A stretch of 48,950 nt of DNA, from contig VGPU01000013.1 in the NCBI GenBank assembly GCA_016882525.1, forward strand, positions 1-48,950, in the 5' to 3' direction. Of the stretch, positions 10,241 through 26,283 are shown piece by piece. The stretch comes from Cyanobacteria bacterium M_surface_10_m2_119. Lineage in GTDB: Bacteria; Cyanobacteriota; Cyanobacteriia; PCC-6307; Cyanobiaceae. The notes beneath the pieces were generated by a model, which worked only from the letters and a program-made list of their open reading frames with translations, had not been told where the DNA came from and made no database searches. Both the position numbers and the translations under genes were made by a program. Position 1 is the first letter of the stretch. Each line of letters begins with the position of its first letter.

Positions 10241-10283
10241 GGTTCGCCTGGGGGGCAGCCCCCAGCAGCGCGACTCGTAAAAT

Positions 10284-10478
10284 CCCGCCACCCTGCTCTC
10301 CCTCTGGAAGGTGGGGGATGCGGCCACCGGCTACTTCATGCAGCGCTACTACGAGCGTCTGCGGGAGGGGCTGGCACCGATGGAGGCGCTGGTGGCGGTG
10401 CAGGAGGAATTCCGCACCGATCCCCCCTACCGCGACTGGCGCTCCCCCAGCGCCTGGGCCGCCTGGCAGCTCACCGGC
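10284..10478 (+). pseudogene. C-terminal remnant of a CHAT-domain protein
   Basis: In one frame, starting directly after a TAA at 10278, the DNA encodes ATLLSLWKVGDAATGYFMQR, then a YYERLREGLAPMEALV segment and AWAAWQLTG. This is the characteristic C-terminal end of CHAT (caspase-HetF/TPR-associated) protease domains: the SLW-V-D-AT-FM helix, the large-AL-Q helix and the final WAAFQLTG strand. The His-Cys catalytic part is missing and no convincing start exists (a GTG at 10311 falls inside the motif). The end overlaps the last codons of potC. I read it as the tail of a deleted gene. Confidence 0.7.
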
Positions 10479-11253
10479 TGGGATCCTCCTGGGGCCGGCA
10501 GGCCAGCAGCAGCAGCGCCGCACTCACCAGCAGCACCAGGGTGGAGAGCACCTGGATCTGGGGAGAGATCTCCCGCTGGAACGCTCCGGCCAGGTAGAGG
10601 GGCAGGGTCACTGTTTCGCCGGCCGTGAAGCTGCTGATCACGTAGTCGTCGAAGGAGAGGGAGAAGCAGAGCAGGACGGCGGCGAACAGGCCCGGCGCCA
10701 GCAGAGGCAGGGTGACCCGCCGGAAGGCCTCCAGCGGCGGGGCGCCCAGGTCCTGGGCCGCCAGCTCGAGGGTGGGATCGAAGCCCGCCAGCCGTGCCTT
10801 GAGGGTGAGGGCGGCATAGCTGAGGCAGAAGAGGCTGTGGGAGAGCAGCAGCGTGAGCGGCCCCCGCGGCAGGTTCAGCCCCACGAAGAGGTTCAGCAGG
10901 GCGGCGGCCAGCACGATCTCGGGGTTGGTGAGCGGCAGCGCCAGCAGCAGCTCGATGCCGCGGCGGCCGCGCACCCGGGCGCGGGCCAGGGCCAGGGCCA
11001 TCAGGCCCCCCAGCAGCACCGCTAGCAGGGCCGCCGCCAGGGCCAGGGCCAGGCTGGTGAGGAAGGCCTGGGTGAGGGCTGCGTCGCGGAGGGGATGGCG
11101 CCAGTTCTCGAGGGTGAAGCCCTGCCAGAGCAGGTTGAAGCGGCCGCGGGGGGCGTTGAAGCTGAACAGCACCATCACCGCGATCGGTGCGTACAGCAGC
11201 CCGTACACCAGGGCGCTCCCGAGGGCGAGCATGAGGCTCCCGAGGCGGCTCAT
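10471..11253 (-). CDS. potC: Polyamine-type ABC transporter permease PotC
   Basis: A 260-residue inner-membrane permease with about six hydrophobic segments and the EAA-type cytoplasmic loop ELAAQDLGAPPLEAFRRVTL that contacts the ATPase. The pattern DDYVISSFTAGETVTLPLYL is typical of PotC/YdcV-like spermidine/putrescine permeases. The ATG at 11253 overlaps the potB stop as ATGA; the open frame continues upstream only as a shadow of potB. It is last in the potADBC operon and its 3' end meets the convergent CHAT remnant. Exact substrate (spermidine, putrescine or another cation) is not decided by sequence. Confidence 0.9.
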   Translation of the reverse strand: MSRLGSLMLALGSALVYGLLYAPIAVMVLFSFNAPRGRFNLLWQGFTLENWRHPLRDAALTQAFLTSLALALAAALLAVLLGGLMALALARARVRGRRGIELLLALPLTNPEIVLAAALLNLFVGLNLPRGPLTLLLSHSLFCLSYAALTLKARLAGFDPTLELAAQDLGAPPLEAFRRVTLPLLAPGLFAAVLLCFSLSFDDYVISSFTAGETVTLPLYLAGAFQREISPQIQVLSTLVLLVSAALLLLACRPQEDPSR

Positions 11254-12182
11254 GGCAGGGGCAGCTCCTCGAGCCCGCGGCCCCGCAACTGCAGCACCAC
11301 CGCCAGGCTGATCAGCGCCATCAGCACCAGGGTGAGCGCGGCGGCCCGGGGCGCCTGCAGCTGCACCAGCAGCAGGTTCTCGATCGTGTTGGCGATCATC
11401 CGCTGGTTCGGTCCGCCGAGGAACTGGGGATTCACCACGTCGCCGGCGGCGGGGATCAGGCTGAGCAGCAGGCCCGCCACCAGCCCCGGCCGCGACAGGG
11501 GCCACACCACCTGGGTGAAGCAGCGCAGCGGGCCGGCGTGCAGGTCGGCGGCGGCCTCCAGCAGGCGTTTGTCGATGCGCTGCAACGCCACCACCAGGGG
11601 CAGCAGCAGAAAGGGCAGCAGGTTGGTGGTGAGCCCCAGGATCACCGAGGCCGGGGTGTTCAGCAGCCGGCCGTCCTGCAGCACGCCCAGGGTGGTGAGC
11701 AGGCCGCTGAGCCCCAGGCGGTGCACCAGGGCCAGCACCGGTCCGCTGTCGCCCAGCAGGCTGGTCCAGGAGATCGCCCGCACCAGATAGGAGCTGAGGG
11801 AGGGCAGCACCACCAGCCCGATCAGCAGGGGCTGCCAGCGGCCTCCGCGGAAGCGTATCGCCAGTGCGAGCGGGTAGGCGAGCACCAGCCCGATGCCCGT
11901 GGCGAGCAGGGCGTAGCCGAAGGAACGCAGCAGGATGGGGCCATGGCTCTGCAGCACCTCCCGGTAGTTGCTCCAGTGGAAGGTGAACACCGTCTCCAGC
12001 CCGAAGCGGCTCACCGGCTCCGAGAGCGAGAGGGGCACCAGAGCCAGCAGGGGCAGCCCATAGAGCCCGATCAGCCAGAGGAGCCCCGGGGCCAGCAGGG
12101 CCCACGGCCACCAGCGGCGCCAGGGCTGCCGCCGCGCTCGCCGCACCGGGGCCGACCCCTCAGCCTTCGGTGATCTCGGCAA
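11250..12182 (-). CDS. potB: Polyamine-type ABC transporter permease PotB
   Basis: A 310-residue permease with about six membrane segments, starting after a basic N terminus at WWPWALLAPGLLWLIGLYGL. The EAA loop LLEAAADLHAGPLRCFTQVV and the GDVVNPQFLGGP motif are typical of PotB/PotH. The longest frame uses TTG at 12182, which overlaps the potD end by 23 bases; GTG at 12146 (298 residues) is an alternative that leaves a short gap. It partners PotC in the membrane and overlaps its start. Confidence 0.9.
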   Translation of the reverse strand: MPRSPKAEGSAPVRRARRQPWRRWWPWALLAPGLLWLIGLYGLPLLALVPLSLSEPVSRFGLETVFTFHWSNYREVLQSHGPILLRSFGYALLATGIGLVLAYPLALAIRFRGGRWQPLLIGLVVLPSLSSYLVRAISWTSLLGDSGPVLALVHRLGLSGLLTTLGVLQDGRLLNTPASVILGLTTNLLPFLLLPLVVALQRIDKRLLEAAADLHAGPLRCFTQVVWPLSRPGLVAGLLLSLIPAAGDVVNPQFLGGPNQRMIANTIENLLLVQLQAPRAAALTLVLMALISLAVVLQLRGRGLEELPLP

Positions 12183-13341
12183 AACGCGCCTCCCAGCGTT
12201 CCTCCTCCTTGGCGCTGAGGGGCCCGAAGCTGTGCAGCCGCTTCTGCATCGCCGCGTCCGGGAACATCAGCGGGTTCTCTGCCAGGGCCTGGGTGGCCGG
12301 ATCCTTCGCCAGGATCTGCTGCACCCCCTCCACCGGGGAGATGTACTGCACGGCAGCGGCGATCCGGGCCGCCTCGGCGGGCTCATACACCCAGTTCATC
12401 CAGGTGGCCGCCGCTGCGCGGTTAGGGGCCCCCTTGGGCATGAGCATCACGTCGGCCCAGAGCACCCCGCCGGTTTCGGGCACGAGGAAGCGCAGATCCG
12501 GCTGCTCCAGCGCCAGCTGCGCCACATCCCCCGACCAGCCGATGCAGGCGGCCAGGTTTCCGGCCAGCAGATCGTTCTGGTAGTCGTTGCCGGTGAAGCG
12601 GCGGATCTGGCCATCGCGGCGGGCCTTCTCGAGCTGCGCGAAGGAGGGCTGGGCCGCCTCCCAGGTGGGCTTGGTGATGTCCTTGCCGTCGGCGAGCATC
12701 AGAAGGCCCATGGTGTCGCGCATCTCCAGCAATGCAGACACCTTCCCCTTCAAGGCCGGATCGAAGAGGTCGTTGACGCTGGTGAGCTCCCGGCCGGTGG
12801 CCTTGATGTTGTAAGCGATGCCGGCGATGCCCGATTGCCACGGCAGGGTGAAGCGCCCCTGCGGATCCCAGGAGGGGTTGCGCAGCGTGGGGATGAGGTT
12901 GCGGGCGTTGGGCACCTCCGCCAGGGGGAGCGGCTCCACCCAGCCGAGCTGGATCAGCCGCTCGGCCATCCAGCCGGTGAGCACCACCAGGTCTTGGCTG
13001 AGGGGCCGGCCGGCGGCCAGCTGGGGCTGGATGCGGGCGAAGAACTGCCGCACATCGTTCACATCCTCCAGGTAGCGGAGGTTGATGCCGGTTTCCTTCT
13101 GGAAGCGGGCCACGCTGCCGGGCGCGCCGGGGGCATCGGCATCGATGTAGAGGGGAAAGGTGGAGAGCACCAGCTCCTTCCCGCCGCCACCGCCACCTCC
13201 ACCTCCACCGCTGGCGCCACCGCCATCGCCCTGGCCGCAGGCCTGCAGCAGCGCCGGCGTGAGCGCCGCGCCGGCCGCCGTGAGTCCGAGCCGGCGCAGG
13301 AAGGCCCGGCGACCGCGGGGCTGGGGGGAGCGGGAATGCAT
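12160..13341 (-). CDS. potD: Polyamine-type ABC transporter substrate-binding lipoprotein PotD
   Basis: A 393-residue periplasmic binding protein. Near the N terminus RRAFLRRLGLTAAGAAL is a twin-arginine-like signal and ALLQAC is a lipobox, so the mature protein would be lipid-anchored at the cysteine. A run of ten glycines follows (near 13,180-13,215), presumably a flexible tether. The mature domain shows LVLSTFPLYID, then LEDVNDVRQFFARI and NLIPTLRNPSWDP, which fit the PotD/PotF class. The ATG at 13341 overlaps the potA stop (ATGA). Confidence 0.9.
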   Translation of the reverse strand: MHSRSPQPRGRRAFLRRLGLTAAGAALTPALLQACGQGDGGGASGGGGGGGGGGKELVLSTFPLYIDADAPGAPGSVARFQKETGINLRYLEDVNDVRQFFARIQPQLAAGRPLSQDLVVLTGWMAERLIQLGWVEPLPLAEVPNARNLIPTLRNPSWDPQGRFTLPWQSGIAGIAYNIKATGRELTSVNDLFDPALKGKVSALLEMRDTMGLLMLADGKDITKPTWEAAQPSFAQLEKARRDGQIRRFTGNDYQNDLLAGNLAACIGWSGDVAQLALEQPDLRFLVPETGGVLWADVMLMPKGAPNRAAAATWMNWVYEPAEAARIAAAVQYISPVEGVQQILAKDPATQALAENPLMFPDAAMQKRLHSFGPLSAKEEERWEARFAEITEG

Positions 13342-14339
13342 CAGAGCGTGGGCTCCTCCAGGGCGTGGCTGTGGGCGGGGTTCCAGCGGCACCAGAGCTC
13401 CGATCCCACGCGCAGATTGTTGGGCAGATTGGCGCTGGTGTCGATGGCGATCAGGGGTCGATCACAGCGGCTGCGCAGGCGCACCTCCACGGTGGCGCCC
13501 TGGAACACCAGCTCCTCCACCCGCGCCTGCAGCCCCCGCTCACCTTCGCCCGGCGGCTCGGGCCCCAGCCGCAGCCGCTCCGGCCGCAGCAGCCGCTGCC
13601 CGGCGCCGGAGGGCTCCGGCAGCAGGTTGGCGGAGCCCAGGAAGGTGGCCACCACGGCGCTGCGGGGCTGCTCGTAGAGCTGCCGGGGCGTGCCCACCTG
13701 CTCGAGGCGGCCGCGGTTCAGCACCGCCAGCCGGTCGCTGAGGCTGAGGGCCTCCTCGCGGTCGTGGGTGACGAGCACGAAGGTGATGCCCACCTCCCGC
13801 TGGATGGCCTGCAGCTCCCGCCGCATCGTGCGCCGCAGATCCGGATCGAGGGCGGCGAGCGGTTCATCGAGCAGCACCGCCGCCGGGGCGTTCACCAGCG
13901 CCCGCGCCAGGGCCACCCGCTGCTGCTGCCCCCCCGAGAGCTGGTGGGGGCGGCGGCGCGCCAGCTCCGGGAGCCGCACCACCTCCAGGGCTTCCCCCAC
14001 CCGCCGGCGCAGCTCGGCGTCCGCCATCCGCCGGGAGCGGGGCCCGAAGGCCACGTTGTCCCACACGCTGAGGTGGGGGAAGAGGGCGTAGTTCTGGAAC
14101 ACCAGGTTCACCGGCCGCCGGTGCGGCGGCGCCTCGGTGAGGTCGCGGCCCTGCAGCAGGATCCGCCCGCTCTGGGGGCGATCGAAGCCGGCGATCAGCC
14201 GCAGGGTGGTGGTTTTGCCGCAGCCGGAGGGGCCCAGCAGGGAAAAGAACTCCCCCGCCCCGATCGAGAGGGTCAGGGGCTCCAGGGCGGTGAGGCTGCC
14301 GTAGCGGCGGCTCACCTCCTGCAGGGCGATCACATCCAT
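13341..14339 (-). CDS. potA: Polyamine-type ABC transporter ATP-binding protein PotA
   Basis: A 332-residue ATPase that powers the potBC permease. Walker A (LLGPSGCGKTTTLRL), the Q-loop FQNYALFPHL, signature LSGGQQQRVALARAL, Walker B with DEPLAALD and the switch histidine in LVTHDREEAL are all intact. A C-terminal TOBE-like domain follows (about residues 240-332). The ATG at 14339 was chosen by alignment with the family start DVIALQEVSRRYG; upstream codons in this frame are non-homologous. It is first in the operon, so the promoter should lie in 14,340-14,427, the gap shared with the truncated amine oxidase. Confidence 0.93.
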   Translation of the reverse strand: MDVIALQEVSRRYGSLTALEPLTLSIGAGEFFSLLGPSGCGKTTTLRLIAGFDRPQSGRILLQGRDLTEAPPHRRPVNLVFQNYALFPHLSVWDNVAFGPRSRRMADAELRRRVGEALEVVRLPELARRRPHQLSGGQQQRVALARALVNAPAAVLLDEPLAALDPDLRRTMRRELQAIQREVGITFVLVTHDREEALSLSDRLAVLNRGRLEQVGTPRQLYEQPRSAVVATFLGSANLLPEPSGAGQRLLRPERLRLGPEPPGEGERGLQARVEELVFQGATVEVRLRSRCDRPLIAIDTSANLPNNLRVGSELWCRWNPAHSHALEEPTL

Positions 14340-14427
14340 GGGGCCCTGTTTAGCAATACTTGCCGGGGGACGAGGGTCCAGGTGGAACTTGCCAGGATCC
14401 GCTGGAACGGCTGCAGGTCTGGAGCGC

Positions 14428-14661
14428 ATGGAAGCCGATGTGGCGGTGGTGGGCGCCGGCCTCTCCGGCCTGGTGTGTGCCCGGGAACTGATCCGCCGGG
14501 GGCTGCGGGTGCAGGTGCTGGAGGCCCGCGAGCGCTGGGGCGGGCGGATGCACGGCCACCGCACCGCCTGCGGCCTCACCGTGGACCTGGGGGGCCAGTG
14601 GGTGGGCGCCACCCACCACCGCCTGCGGGCGCTGCTGTCTTGCTTGCTGAGGACGAACTGA
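14428..14661 (+). pseudogene. Truncated flavin amine oxidase (N-terminal fragment)
   Basis: The frame encodes 77 residues. The first 70 are the FAD-binding start of a bacterial flavin monoamine/polyamine oxidase: DVAVVGAGLSGLVCARELI is the dinucleotide-binding GxGxxG, VLEARERWGGRM the FAD ribose/GG motif, and VDLGGQWVGATHHRLRALL the next conserved segment. Full-length enzymes have about 450 residues. Homology stops near 14,636 and the frame ends after seven unrelated residues at the border of the less G+C-rich islet. No continuation is found to the right, so this looks like a deletion or replacement, not a simple insertion. It is divergent from potA, suggesting a former polyamine-related enzyme. 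Confidence 0.8.
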
Positions 14662-14804
14662 CCACCCGCCTGACCCTGTTGGCACTGGAGGCGGTTGGTG
14701 ACCCTCAGGTGACCTCAGGGGTGCTGAACCTCCTGGAAGACCTGTCGCCACTGGTGGAGATGTGCGAAGAGGCGGTGGGTCTGACGGTTCCTTGTGGGTC
14801 GTAG
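14640..14804 (+). other. Short open frame of unknown origin at the islet border
   Basis: From the amine-oxidase breakpoint one frame reads ELTTRLTLLALEAVGDPQVT, then a segment ending NLLEDLSPLVEMCEEAVG before a TAG. It could start at TTG 14640 (54 residues). The composition (acidic, helix-like, Leu-rich) looks more like coding sequence than chance, but I recognise no family. It may be the tail of a gene whose start was lost with the rest of the amine oxidase, or a small gene with a weak start. Confidence 0.3.
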
Positions 14805-14813
14805 GAGGTAGTG

Positions 14814-14828
14814 GCGCAACCATTGCGC
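14814..14828 (-). terminator. Possible terminator hairpin
   Basis: A 6-bp perfect stem GCGCAA/TTGCGC with a 3-base loop lies two bases beyond the stop of the minus-strand gene at 14831. No T-run follows in the minus direction, so its role as terminator is uncertain. Confidence 0.3.
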
Positions 14829-14830
14829 TT

Positions 14831-15049
14831 CTAACACCCTTTGTCGCTGCGATTGGAGTTGTTGACTTCCTTAGATTGCTCTTGGCGATTTCTCCACTGC
14901 CTTCTTTCTTCTTGCCCGAGCACGACAGTTTCCATCGTCACCCACGACCCAAATGCCAGGGCAATCATCCCCGTGCTGCCCTTCACCGCCCCTATGAGCA
15001 TCAGTAGAACTGCCGTGGCAACCCCAGCAATCTGAATTGGACTGCTCAT
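14831..15049 (-). CDS. Small membrane protein of unknown function
   Basis: A 72-residue product: a hydrophobic N-terminal half (IQIAGVATAVLLMLIGAVKG and MIALAFGSWVTMETVVL, one long or two short membrane segments) followed by a hydrophilic, charged tail rich in R, Q, E and N. No family is recognised. The ATG at 15049 is preceded by GAGG at a spacing of eight bases; an open frame continues 57 codons upstream but looks non-coding. It is the last of three minus-strand genes of the islet, 140 bases after the preceding one; that gap holds nothing I recognise. Confidence 0.5.
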   Translation of the reverse strand: MSSPIQIAGVATAVLLMLIGAVKGSTGMIALAFGSWVTMETVVLGQEERRQWRNRQEQSKEVNNSNRSDKGC

Positions 15050-15189
15050 CTGAATCGCCTCAATCCTTGAGTTCTTATGAGCTCTTTGAATTCTGGCGAA
15101 TCTCCTCGTTGCCTGTCGCTTTATGGAGAAAACGCATATCCCAGTTTCTTGCCTAGTCGTCTTCTTCCCCTGCTGCGGCACTATGCCTT

Positions 15190-15372
15190 TTACCTTTTGC
15201 CTTCCTTGTCCCCTCTCCAAATCTTCTCCAGCGACCTCCTGAACTCCCTCTCACTCAGCGGTCTTGCCAGATCTCGCTTCCTGAGAGTGCTGCCGATCCA
15301 CCACACCTGAAGACCTCCAAAGGCAAGAGCGACCAGACCCAGTTGGAGGTATCCCCAGTTCAGGTGCTCCAT
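15190..15372 (-). CDS. Small single-span membrane protein of unknown function
   Basis: A 60-residue product with one membrane segment near the N terminus (LQLGLVALAFGGLQVWWIG) and a strongly charged C-terminal tail (RKRDLARPLSEREF, then basic residues to the end). The ATG at 15372 overlaps the stop of the upstream Cys/His-protein gene as ATGA, arguing for a real, translationally coupled gene. I recognise no family. Small basic-tailed membrane proteins of this shape include SOS-induced division inhibitors and toxins in other bacteria, but that is only an analogy. Confidence 0.55.
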   Translation of the reverse strand: MEHLNWGYLQLGLVALAFGGLQVWWIGSTLRKRDLARPLSEREFRRSLEKIWRGDKEGKR

Positions 15373-15683
15373 CACGCTGCCTGCTGCGCTTTCTGACACC
15401 GCTTGGACTGCTGGTGTTGCTTGAACGCCCACTGGGTTCCCTTGATGACCTGTCCGCAGTGCTCGCAGGTCGTTGAGGGTGCTCTGCGAATCCAGTTCTC
15501 AGGGCGCTCCCCGACTAGTTCCCGCCTTGACGGATCAATGCCTCTTCCCTGCTGGTATCTGGACAGGGCAGGAGCGGTGGTGACGAACCCTGTCTCCAGA
15601 CAGCGGAACAGGAGGGTCTGACCCCGCAGGTTCTGGGTGTTGTAGGCGGCGTGAGTCATCTCATCTTGCTCGACCCTGCCCAT
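15372..15683 (-). CDS. Small Cys/His (zinc-finger-like) protein
   Basis: A 103-residue protein. Its first part has the pattern LLFRCLETGFVTTAPALSRY with QQGRGID after it, which I recall in short uncharacterised picocyanobacterial proteins. The C-terminal part CEHCGQVIKGTQWAFKQHQ plus a following Cys gives a C-x2-C...H-x5-C arrangement able to bind zinc. It may bind nucleic acid, but nothing proves this. ATG 15683 has GAGG nine bases upstream; ATG 15659 is an alternative. It is first in the minus-strand islet operon, downstream of the palindrome at 15747. Confidence 0.6.
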   Translation of the reverse strand: MGRVEQDEMTHAAYNTQNLRGQTLLFRCLETGFVTTAPALSRYQQGRGIDPSRRELVGERPENWIRRAPSTTCEHCGQVIKGTQWAFKQHQQSKRCQKAQQAA

Positions 15684-15746
15684 AGTGGCAACCCTCAGGG
15701 TGGAACGCTACAGGCAGCGTTGCTTGACCCTCTTGACCGATGCGAA

Positions 15747-15762
15747 TAATACAGGTGTATTA
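15747..15762. promoter_or_regulatory. LexA-like operator palindrome between divergent genes
   Basis: TAATACA-GG-TGTATTA is a perfect 7+7 bp palindrome in the 90-bp gap between the divergent starts at 15683 (minus) and 15774 (plus). Its core ATACA-x2-TGTAT is the same as in the palindrome just upstream of lexA (27066). Cyanobacterial LexA sites are known as TAC-x(6)-GTA-type palindromes, so LexA control of both islet transcripts is a reasonable inference. Another repressor with a similar site cannot be excluded. Confidence 0.6.
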
Positions 15763-15773
15763 GCGCTTTTCCT

Positions 15774-16043
15774 GTGACATCTGCCCGCCCCTCCTCCTCT
15801 GCTGCCCTCTCCCCTGAAGAGTGGGACTACTTGGAGTGGGATGTCCTCAAACCCTCCCGCTCCAGTGCCGTCTGTATCACCTGTCAGCACTTCCGCTATG
15901 AGGTCGGCAGGCACTGCGTCACCTTGCTGACCTGTCCGATTCATCAGGGTCTAATTCCCCAGGGAGAGCACCTGACCAAGCGGTGCTCACAGTGGGTGGG
16001 GCGGAAGGAGTTGGCGGTTGGGTGGTGTCCTGAGGGTGGGTGA
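15774..16043 (+). CDS. Small Cys-rich protein of unknown function
   Basis: An 89-residue product. Four cysteines and two histidines are arranged as CITCQHF...LLTCPIHQGLIPQGEHL...RCSQW, a pattern I recall from short hypothetical proteins that occur in several copies in marine Synechococcus. A zinc-ribbon-like fold is likely; no catalytic motif or membrane segment is visible. Translation probably begins at GTG 15774, only 11 bases after the LexA-like palindrome, so a leader would be very short. The downstream gap to pdhC (16044-16229) holds only a candidate promoter. Confidence 0.55.
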   Translation: MTSARPSSSAALSPEEWDYLEWDVLKPSRSSAVCITCQHFRYEVGRHCVTLLTCPIHQGLIPQGEHLTKRCSQWVGRKELAVGWCPEGG

Positions 16044-16104
16044 GGTGGTTTCGTCCTTCTGGTGGCGGTCCTCAATCGACCGACTCTCCCCGTGGTGACT
16101 GGGG

Positions 16105-16133
16105 TTCTGGCGGGTATCACGCCGTCATAAAAT
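16105..16133 (+). promoter_or_regulatory. Candidate sigma-70-type promoter of pdhC
   Basis: TAAAAT at 16128 matches the -10 consensus in five of six positions, and a weak -35 (TTCTGG at 16105) lies 17 bases upstream. It would give a leader of about 90 bases before the pdhC start. The weak -35 keeps confidence low. Confidence 0.3.
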
Positions 16134-16229
16134 CCCCCGAACACCCGACCCCGACCTGCCTCCAGCACTTGGAGAAAAGTTGGAACAACGGTTGGAACAC
16201 CCCTCCAAAACGCCGACGGGCACTGGTCT

Positions 16230-17600
16230 ATGGCAACCCACGAAATCTTCATGCCCGCCCTCTCCTCCACCATGACGGAGGGCAAGATCGTGGAGTGGCT
16301 CAAGAAGCCGGGCGACCGTGTCGAGCGTGGTGAGTCGGTGCTGGTGGTGGAGAGCGACAAGGCCGACATGGACGTGGAGGCCTTCCAGGAGGGCTTCCTG
16401 GCTGCCGTGCTGATGCCTGCCGGTGGTTCGGCGCCGGTCGGTGAAACCATCGGTCTGATCGTGGAGACCGAAGCCGAGATCGCTGAGGCGGCCGCCAAGG
16501 CTCCGGCTGCGCCCGCCGCTGCTGCTGCTCCGGCCGCAGCTCCCGCGCCTGCAGCCGCACCCCCTGCTCCGGTCGCTGCTGCTGCCCCTGCCCCTGCAGC
16601 GCCGGCCCCTGCCCCGGCTCCCGTGGCCGCTCCCGCCCCAGTGGCGGTGAGCGCCCCGGCCTCCACCGCCAGCGGCCGGGTGGTGGCCTCGCCCCGCGCC
16701 AAGAAGTTGGCCAGCCAGTTGGGGGTGGATCTGGGTGCCCTGCGCGGCAGCGGACCCCATGGCCGCATCCAGGCCGACGATGTGCTGGCCGCCACTGGTC
16801 AGCCGATTTCCGTGCCCCGGGTGGCTGAGGGCAGTGGCCCGGCCGCGAGTGCGGCCGTGGGCCAGGGCAACGGCGCGCCGGCTCCGGCCCCTGCTCCCGC
16901 CGGTGACGCCTTCGGTCGCCCCGGCGACACGGTGGCCTTCAACACCCTGCAGAACGCGGTGAACCGCAACATGCTCGCCAGCCTGGAGGTGCCCTGCTTC
17001 CGGGTGGGCTACACGATCACCACCACCAGGCTCGACGCCTTCTACAAGCAGGTGAAGGGCAAGGGCGTCACCATGACGGCCCTGCTGGCCAAGGCCGTGG
17101 CCGTGACCCTGGCCCGCCATCCCCAGGTGAATGCCGCCACCAGCGCCGATGGCAGCGCCATGGCCTATCCCGCCGCGGTGAACGTGGCCGTGGCAGTGGC
17201 GATGGAGGACGGCGGCCTGATCACGCCGGTGCTGGCCAGCGCTGACAAGACCGACATCTATTCGCTGGCGCGCAACTGGGCCGACCTGGTGGCCCGGGCC
17301 CGCAGCAAGCAGCTCAAGCCGGAGGAGTACAGCACCGGCACCTTCACCCTCTCCAACCTGGGCATGTTCGGGGTGGATCGCTTCGATGCGATCCTGCCGC
17401 CGGGCACCGGCGCCATCCTGGCGGTGGCGGCGTCGCGGCCCACGGTGGTGGCCGGCAAGGACGGCTCAATCCGGGTGGCCCACCAGATGCAGGTGAACCT
17501 CACCTGCGACCACCGCACCATCTATGGCGCCCACGCGGCGGGCTTCCTCAAGGACCTGGCCCAGCTGATCGAGACCAACCCTGAGAGCCTGGCGCTCTGA
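16230..17600 (+). CDS. pdhC: Pyruvate dehydrogenase E2, dihydrolipoamide acetyltransferase
   Basis: Core of the pyruvate dehydrogenase complex; transfers the acetyl group from the E1-formed lipoyl arm to CoA. The 456-residue product has one lipoyl domain (residues 1-80, lipoyl lysine K44 in VESDKADMDVEAF), a long Ala/Pro linker (about 88-145), an E3-binding domain (SPRAKKLASQLGVDL...GSGPHGRI) and the catalytic domain ending with the CDHRTIYGA active-site histidine motif. The Ala/Pro linker is normal for E2. Start ATG 16230. LipB (5744) would supply its octanoyl modification. The permease gene follows after 13 bases. Confidence 0.95.
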   Translation: MATHEIFMPALSSTMTEGKIVEWLKKPGDRVERGESVLVVESDKADMDVEAFQEGFLAAVLMPAGGSAPVGETIGLIVETEAEIAEAAAKAPAAPAAAAAPAAAPAPAAAPPAPVAAAAPAPAAPAPAPAPVAAPAPVAVSAPASTASGRVVASPRAKKLASQLGVDLGALRGSGPHGRIQADDVLAATGQPISVPRVAEGSGPAASAAVGQGNGAPAPAPAPAGDAFGRPGDTVAFNTLQNAVNRNMLASLEVPCFRVGYTITTTRLDAFYKQVKGKGVTMTALLAKAVAVTLARHPQVNAATSADGSAMAYPAAVNVAVAVAMEDGGLITPVLASADKTDIYSLARNWADLVARARSKQLKPEEYSTGTFTLSNLGMFGVDRFDAILPPGTGAILAVAASRPTVVAGKDGSIRVAHQMQVNLTCDHRTIYGAHAAGFLKDLAQLIETNPESLAL

Positions 17601-17613
17601 TCGCCCCACCGCC

Positions 17614-19479
17614 GTGAACCAGCCAGCGGCTCCTGCCCTGTTCCGCTGGCTGTTCGGCCGGCCCCTGCCGAAGACCGCCGCCGCTAGCGAACGGCTGGCC
17701 AGCATGCAGGCCCTGCCGATCCTGGCTTCCGATGCCCTCTCCTCGGTGGCCTATGCCACCGAGGCCGCCCTGGGTGTGCTGGTGCTGGCCGGCAGCCAGG
17801 CCCTGCGGCTCTCGCTGCCGATCACCCTGGCGATCCTGGTGCTGATCGCGATCGTGGTGGCGTCTTATCGCCAGACGATCGAGGCCTACCCCCAGGGCGG
17901 CGGTTCCTACGTGGTGGCCCGGGAGAACCTGGGCACTGGCCCTTCCCTGTTGGCCGCCGCGGCCCTGCTGGTGGATTACACCCTCACGGCGGCGGTGAGC
18001 CTGATGGCCGGCACCCAGGCCCTCTCCTCGCTCTGGCCGGCTCTGCTGCCCTACGAGGTGCCCCTGGCGCTGCTGTTGCTGCTGCTGGTGGGCTGGGCCA
18101 ACCTGCGCGGCCTGCGGGAGGCCGGCCAGGTCTTCACCATTCCCATTTAAGCCTTTGTGGCGATGGTGGCCCTGCTGGCCGTCTTCGGCCTGCAGAACCT
18201 GGTGGCGGCCCATGGCTTCACCCCCGATCCGCCGCCGCTGATCCGGGCCGTGGAGCCCCTGGGGTTGTTCCTGGTGCTGCGGGCCTTCAGTTCAGGCTGC
18301 TCGGCGATGACCGGCATCGAGGCGATCGCCAATGGCGTGTCGGTGTTCCGGGAGCCGGCGGCGCGCCGCGCCCGCGCCACGATGCTGGTGATGGGCCTGA
18401 TGCTGGCCTCGATGTTCCTGGCCGTGAGTGGCCTGGCCTACCTCTATGGCGTGGCCCCGGATTCGGATCGCACCGTGCTGGCCCAGGTGGGCCTGCGCGT
18501 CTTCGGTGAGGGCAGCCTGCTGTTCTGGGCGCTGCAGATCACCACCCTGCTGATCCTCACCCTGGCCGCCAACACCGCCTTCGCAGGCTTCCCGCGGCTG
18601 GCGGCGATGCTGGCCCAGGATCGCTTCCTGCCGCGCCAGATGGGCTGGATCGGCGACCGGCTGGTGTTCCAGAACGGCATCGCCGTGCTGCTGGCGGCCA
18701 CCGCCCTGATCATCCTGGTGTGCCGCGGTGACACCACCGTGGCGGTGAACCTCTACGCCCTCGGGGTGTTCATTGCCTTCACCCTCTCCCAGGCCGGGAT
18801 GGTGGTGCGCTGGTGGCGCCAGCGCGGGGCTGGTTGGCTGGGGCGGCTGGCGATCAACGCCCTGGGGGCCTTCACCACCCTGGTGGTGCTGCTAGTGATC
18901 GTGGTGAGCAAGTTCGCCGAAGGCGCCTGGACTGTGGTGATCGCCATCCCCCTGCTGGTGTGGCTGCTCGCTAGCATCCACCGCCGCTATCGCCGGGTCT
19001 ACGCCGCCATTGCCCTGCCGGCCGAGGCCCGCAGCCGTGTGGTGCTGCCGACCCGCCGCGATCCGGTGGGCAATCGCAGCATCGTCTGGATCGCCTCCCT
19101 CTCTCGCCCATCGCTCGAGGCCCTGCGCTATGCGGCCACGGTGTCGGATCAGGTGCTGGCGGTGTGGGTGCGCTCCGAAGAGGACGACACCGACCGCATT
19201 CGCCACGATTGGCAGCGGCTGGTGGGCGATGGGCCCGGCATCAGCCTGCAGATCCTGGAGAGCCCCTTTGCCTCGCTGATCGACCCCTTCGTGGCGTTTG
19301 TGGCGGCTCAGGAACAGGCCCATCCCGAGGTGAGCCACACGATCGTGATGCCGATGGCCATTCCGCGCTATCGCTTTGATTCCCTGCTGCTCAACCAGCG
19401 CGGGATCAACATGCATCGGGCCCTCGATGCCAGCGGCAATCGGGTGTTCACCCTCGTGCGCTATTACCTACCGGCCTGA
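17614..19479 (+). pseudogene. KimA-like APC-superfamily permease interrupted by an in-frame TAA
   Basis: Two open frames in the same phase, 17614-18150 and 18157-19479, together encode one full-length transporter of about 620 residues. The only interruption is TAA at 18148 inside VFTIPI-stop-AFVAMVALLAVFG, where relatives would have a residue such as Tyr. The protein has 12 predicted membrane segments with ILASDALSSVAYATEAALGV and YRQTIEAYPQGGGSYVVARE, close to Bacillus KimA (YdaO) potassium importers and related APC permeases, plus a C-terminal cytoplasmic domain from about 19,000. It starts with GTG 13 bases after pdhC and precedes queA by 16 bases. Either a recent nonsense mutation or a sequence error; no other damage is visible. 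Confidence 0.8.
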
Positions 19480-19495: not shown

Positions 19496-20665
19496 ATGAC
19501 CACTCCCGCTGATCAGCGGCTCTCGAGTTACGACTTCCACCTGCCCCAGGAACGCATCGCCCAGCGGCCGGTGGAGCCGCGCCATGCGGCCCGGTTGCTG
19601 GCGGTGGATCCGCTGGGGAGCGGAGCTGCTCCCCATGGGCGCCATCTCAGCGTGTGGGATCTGCAGCAGGAGCTCCGGCCGGGCGATCTGCTGGTGGTGA
19701 ACGACACCCGGGTGTTGCGGGCGCGCCTGGAGGCGCGCCGGCCCACGGGTGGGGCCGTGGAAGTGCTGGTGCTCGAGCCCTGGCAACCGGTCAGCGCCGC
19801 CGCCGATCCCGCGGCAGTCGCGGCGGGAGCAGGACGCTGGCTCTGCCTGGCCAAGCCCGCCAAGAAGCTGCAGCCCGGTGACCGGATCGAGGTGGTGGCG
19901 GACGGCAAGCCCCCCCTGCCTGTGCAGGTGCTGGGCAGTGACCCCGAGACCGGAGGCCGCATCCTGCAGTTCCCCGCCGACTGCAGCGATGCCGCCGCCC
20001 TCGAGCCACTGCTGATCCAGTACGGGGCGATCCCCCTGCCGCCCTACATCCACGAGCACGACGATTCCGACAACGAGCGCTACCAGACCCGCTACGCCGC
20101 CCGCCCCGGTGCCGTGGCGGCCCCCACGGCCGGCCTGCACCTGAGCGATGCGCTGCTCGCCGCCATCCGTGAGCGGGGCGTGGAGCTGGCCACCACCACC
20201 CTGCACGTGGGTCTGGGCACGTTCCGGCCGGTGGAAACGGAAGACCTGCGCCACCTGGAGCTCCACAGCGAGTGGGTGGAGGTGACCCCGGCGCTGGTGG
20301 AGGCGGTGGCCGCCTGCCGGGCGCGGGGAGGCCGGGTGATCGCCATCGGCACCACCTCGGTGCGCAGCCTGGAGGCCGTGGCCCGGCTCCATGGCGGCGA
20401 GCTGCGGCCCCACACCGGCCCGGTGAATCTGGTGATCCAGCCCGGCTACCGCTTTGCCGTGGTGCAGGGCCTGCTCACCAATTTCCACCTGCCCAAGAGC
20501 TCCCTGCTACTGCTCGTGAGTGCCCTGATCGGCCGCGAGCGCCTGCTGGCTCTCTACGCCGAGGCGATCGAGCGCCAGTACCGCTTCTTCTCCTACGGCG
20601 ATGCCATGTGGATCGCGCCGGAGGCGGTGCTTCCTTCAGCCGTTTCCCAGCCGACCCGCCCCTGA
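19496..20665 (+). CDS. queA: S-adenosylmethionine:tRNA ribosyltransferase-isomerase
   Basis: Transfers and isomerises the ribosyl moiety of AdoMet onto 7-aminomethyl-7-deazaguanine in tRNA to give epoxyqueuosine. The 389-residue product shows [20 protein letters not shown] at the start, [23 protein letters not shown], the signature [30 protein letters not shown] and the [15 protein letters not shown] end. The ATG at 19496 fits the family start; the upstream frame extension is the shadow of the permease. It ends facing the sodB terminator. Confidence 0.96.
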
Positions 20666-26210: not shown

Positions 26211-26283
26211 TGGAGCCAAGGAGACTCGAACTCCTGACCCCCTGCATGCCATGCAGGTGCTCTACCAGCTGAGCTATGGCCCC
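26211..26283 (-). tRNA. tRNA-Ala (anticodon GGC)
   Basis: The 73-base minus-strand sequence folds into a complete cloverleaf: acceptor stem GGGGCCA / TGGCTCC (one G-U pair), D arm GCTC-AGCTGGTA-GAGC, anticodon stem CCTGC / GCAGG with loop ATGGCAT (anticodon GGC, reading GCC), five-base variable region, T arm AGGAG-TTCGAGT-CTCCT, discriminator A. CCA is not encoded. Its promoter should lie in 26284-26397, where no clear motif was found. Confidence 0.96.

Follow-up and report, generated by a model that had tools for sequence, protein, structure and literature searches.

The window, that is, the whole stretch of 48,950 nucleotides analysed here, belongs to a draft assembly of 118 contigs totalling 2.62 Mb (99.9% completeness, 2.66% contamination); the named organisms nearest to it are strains of Cyanobium and Synechococcus. 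It contains an interrupted gene, assigned below to kimA, which lies between two intact genes of the same strand. The upstream neighbour is named pdhC here, presumably for dihydrolipoamide acetyltransferase, and the downstream neighbour queA, which we take to encode the tRNA-queuosine enzyme. The features of the locus are as follows.

16230–17600, plus strand: pdhC, intact upstream neighbour; open reading frame that adjoins kimA in relatives, with 13 bases from its stop to the kimA start
17614–18147, plus strand: 5' part of kimA, codons 1–178 (TM1–4 and the start of TM5), open from GTG 17614; matches KimA (6s3k) and AA_permease_2
18148–18150, plus strand: in-frame TAA at codon 179, within the predicted helix 167–200; across 79 related loci this codon gives Tyr 77 times and Phe twice
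18151–19479, plus strand: 3' part of kimA, codons 180–621 with the native stop (everything from the remainder of TM5, including the C-terminal alpha/beta domain); 442 open codons with a 6s3k match
18157–18165, plus strand: possible restart codons GTG 18157 and ATG 18163, without an upstream ribosome-binding-site-like motif
19496–20665, plus strand: queA, intact downstream neighbour; open reading frame that adjoins kimA in relatives

The frame 17614–19479 comprises 621 codons and the native stop and is open apart from TAA at 18148–18150. Translation thus bears out the original prediction that both halves lie in one frame with this TAA as the only internal stop. Two details of that prediction have to be amended. 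The codon at 18157, given as ATG, is in fact GTG; no ATG follows the stop until 18163. The segment around the stop had also been described as fully conserved; near relatives read P-T-Y-A-F versus P-I-stop-A-F in the window, so that the residue preceding the stop is altered as well. The frame past TAA shares up to 92% protein identity with its nearest relatives, and 442 open codons at this level of identity must be the remainder of a real gene rather than a product of chance. The gene occurs once, with no second kimA copy found in the assembly of the window. A search for a short-patch donor of the altered bases found no template: the 12-mer around the stop has no second occurrence in the genome, nor has its 10-mer in the window.

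Elsewhere in the window, the roughly 6 kb upstream of pdhC (10242–16230) hold a transporter-like gene set on the minus strand (10471–14612) that has no counterpart at this place in two relatives, and a tRNA-Ala (GGC) gene is found at 26211–26283, also on the minus strand. The assembly (G000) contains tRNA-Tyr (GTA) three times (C42:14833-14996, C69:9301-9382 and C71:7360-7523), in two cases with tRNA-Thr alongside. Contigs C42 and C71 share 81% identity over 694 bases, as might result from a duplication or from foreign contigs.

Identity of the interrupted gene

Sequence comparison identifies the gene as an orthologue of kimA, which encodes a K+/H+ symporter of the KUP family. The 5' half aligns to residues 5–174 of KimA (PDB 6s3k; E 1e-44) and the 3' half to residues 179–584 (E 6.1e-78), while the protein of an intact relative, L049, aligns over residues 5–584 (E 7.7e-128). 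The Pfam family AA_permease_2 also matches each half, but far more weakly than 6s3k does. In PMC6994465, 13 ion-path residues of KimA are named. Eleven of these are retained in the window according to alignments read by eye (D36, Y43, D117, Y118, T121, S125, T230, E233, N237, T317 and Y377), and the remaining two, S320 and Q324, are replaced by Ala and Arg both in the window and in intact L049. The far stronger match to KimA, together with the ion-path residues, rules out a general amino-acid permease. Accordingly, of the earlier designation as a potassium/amino-acid permease, the potassium transporter stands, now as a KimA-type symporter, and the amino-acid permease is dropped. PMC6994465 also treats KimA as a subfamily separate from classical Kup. 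In our search, the Pfam model of the latter, K_trans, scored 17.6 bits, below the curated cut-off of 24.8, and its sole match was kimA itself. The window therefore has a kimA gene, but as it stands this gene is predicted to yield no working KimA, since its frame is interrupted. A further characteristic of KimA-type transporters is potassium transport that cyclic di-AMP inhibits.

The genome of the window also encodes one TrkH-family gene with an open frame, and a search of this genome for KdpA gave no match. In principle, the TrkH-family gene would make the loss of KimA tolerable, a physiological reason that is inferred. According to PMC9361551, Ktr and Trk systems are present in all picocyanobacteria studied there. 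The same paper lists a putative potassium transporter of patchy distribution, CK_00002470, which may or may not be kimA, in 43 of 67 freshwater, 7 of 17 brackish and 8 of 48 marine strains.

The kimA locus in related genomes

The order pdhC-kimA-queA is, as judged from the loci compared, widespread. Both flanks are present on 31 of the 79 related loci, including those of WH7803 and RCC307, by a hand count in which contig ends shorten many loci. Within the genus of the window the picture is different. When the 12 other genomes were searched at the protein level, G010 was the only one to give an intact kimA (62% identity), and G007 gave a trace. The flanks, searched for as DNA, showed that pdhC is directly followed by queA, without kimA, in eight of the 12 (G001, G002, G004, G005, G006, G009, G011 and G012); the junction could not be assessed in G003, where only the queA flank was found, and in G008, where neither was. 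Remnants of the kimA 3' end persist in two of the eight, G006 (E 1e-8) and G009 (E 0.002). In G007, three pieces of kimA remain in order within about 140 bases between the end of pdhC and queA. They match window positions 17597–17684, 19201–19237 and 19455–19479, with E values of 3e-27, 1.4e-9 and 7e-4 against a 1.9-kb target.

In a tree of pdhC and queA, built from 35 rows chosen from loci holding both genes, the window is sister to G007 (99/97), followed by G010, and at least three changes of kimA state are required. The tree alone cannot separate gain from loss, but the kimA scraps point to loss. Taken together, the junctions, scraps and tree indicate that the genus has lost kimA several times. 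This loss is not universal, given the intact gene of G010. In the literature searched, we found no description of kimA loss in picocyanobacteria.

A divergent kimA (about 51–64% protein identity) is found in L046/G010, L048, L050–L053, L055, L057 and L058, in most of them at the same place. In G010, the proteins flanking it are 85–91% identical to those of the window. A divergent kimA between flanks this similar suggests allele replacement at the locus. In the comparison of divergence, G010 also stands close at pdhC (7.9%) and far at queA (17.8%), and recombination may occur near the kimA locus.

Explanations for the in-frame stop

Codon 179 is covered in all 79 related loci, where it specifies Tyr in 77 and Phe in 2; none has a stop there. 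At codon 178, where the window has Ile, the same loci have Thr (70), Val (8) or Met (1). Lesions elsewhere in kimA affect three of the 79, namely L055 and L056, which shift to another frame and come from metagenome-assembled genomes, and L060, whose alignment contains a single stop. An AlphaFold2 model of intact L049, built with 22 aligned locus proteins (mean pLDDT 83.9), places codon 179 within helix 167–200 and not in a loop.

Outside this site, kimA looks like a gene under normal constraint. In a comparison of 616 codons with L004–L007 and L049, 11 replacements (the stop included) and 27 synonymous changes are unique to the window. The corresponding replacement/synonymous counts are 4/17 in L004, 1/9 in L005, 5/13 in L006, 3/3 in L049 and 43/81 in L007. 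The window does not differ from L004, L005, L006 and L049 pooled without the distant L007 (11:27 versus 13:42, Fisher p 0.63); no relaxation is seen, which a very recent lesion would lead one to expect. Between the window and L049, 24% of kimA codons differ silently and 9% by replacement, compared with 25–26% and about 10% in the flanks. Such a pattern implies that the gene was constrained until almost now and that the lesion is either recent or an error. A recent import of kimA into the window is not supported, its divergence from L049 being about equal to that of the flanks. Three of the 11 unique replacements, A173V, T178I and Y179-to-stop, fall within seven codons (p 0.036, in a test chosen after the fact); once they are removed, the comparison with the pool gives a Fisher p of 1.0. 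At the level of bases the cluster is unexceptional, as a stretch of 10 bases near 19230 likewise holds three unique changes. The replacement cluster could fit a multi-base mutation and a local consensus fault alike.

Probably, then, a nonsense change at codon 179 has only recently disabled kimA of this Cyanobium/Synechococcus-type picocyanobacterium, in a group whose members have repeatedly deleted the gene. Very recent loss was one of three readings proposed originally, and it is the best supported of them: the rest of the gene is constrained, and nine of the other 12 genomes in the genus either lack kimA or retain scraps of it.

The main rival, also among the original readings, which we consider unlikely although by no means negligible, is that kimA is intact in the living cell and that TAA is a wrong base call in the draft genome. 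The stop is the sole sign of relaxed selection on the gene, and a consensus error would give the same picture. The intact and constrained remainder of kimA, the clustering of replacements around the stop and the draft state of the assembly, with its many contigs and some contamination, all agree with an error, and the frameshifts of the metagenome-assembled L055 and L056 may be faults of like kind. However, substitution errors that create stops are rare in polished drafts, and most genomes of the genus, the sister included, have lost the gene. In addition, we placed frames of at least 120 codons from the contigs of two relatives on the window by tblastn and inspected the best placements for stops, frameshifts being outside the test. 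Among 77 placements, 19 with stops, kimA alone has an internal stop with 25 or more of 30 residues identical on either side, and it does so against the frames of both relatives. The other stop-holding placements may reflect overlap with a neighbouring gene, shadow frames or sequence ahead of the true start.

Two-part expression, in which translation terminates at TAA and resumes from GTG 18157 or ATG 18163 to give two pieces that form a working transporter, had also been proposed and is very doubtful. The nearest start codon, 6 bases past the stop, is close enough for reinitiation in principle, and split transporters such as LacY can work when co-expressed. The break, however, lies inside the predicted helix 167–200, no split at this site occurs among the 79 related loci, each of them having a residue there, and a ribosome-binding-site-like motif is absent before both restart codons, as it also is before the native GTG 17614. 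Even more doubtful is its fuller version, a two-subunit KimA in which a split in TM5 is tolerated through reinitiation six bases past the stop and the pieces are co-translated, in a genus otherwise discarding kimA. Least credible of all is recoding or suppression: a single base separates TAA from a Tyr codon and Tyr is found in 77 of the 79 relatives, but no other placed gene with well-matched sides is interrupted by TAA, and no stop-reading anticodon is present among the 42 tRNAs called by ARAGORN (of 43 tRNA matches in the genome, the 43rd is weak, at 30.2 bits, and ARAGORN calls nothing there).

Consequences and comparison with known systems

If kimA was inactivated by the nonsense change, TAA would end translation after TM4 and part of TM5, and the resulting 178-residue product would be unable to transport. 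The cell would then rely on the TrkH-family (Trk/Ktr-type) potassium uptake left to it. Able to do without the transporter, such a lineage would later delete the locus, which would bring pdhC next to queA, as in the relatives. Most likely, the window represents the first step of a further kimA loss in the genus. Should the stop be real, this first step is caught here, while the later steps, scraps and a clean pdhC-queA junction, are visible in the sister genomes, and the locus offers a small worked example of picocyanobacteria shedding one of several potassium-uptake systems. Should it be an error, it matters for annotation alone. An early loss of kimA at this locus is most likely an ordinary event.

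The closest known counterpart is KimA of Bacillus subtilis, the potassium/proton symporter represented by 6s3k, nearly the whole length of which is covered by the two halves. The window differs from it by the stop, at the position of KimA Tyr175, and by Ala and Arg in place of S320 and Q324. The C-terminal alpha/beta domain of KimA is also predicted by the model of the cyanobacterial relative L049. Among picocyanobacteria such as Synechococcus WH7803 and RCC307 and Cyanobium sp. T1B-Tous, the window shares the place of kimA and the order of its neighbours, and its nearest relatives in this group are those with up to 92% protein identity; unlike the window, the others have no stop at codon 179. 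With ordinary recent nonsense pseudogenes the window shares a single stop in an otherwise intact frame, intact orthologues and loss in sister lineages, with no notable difference.
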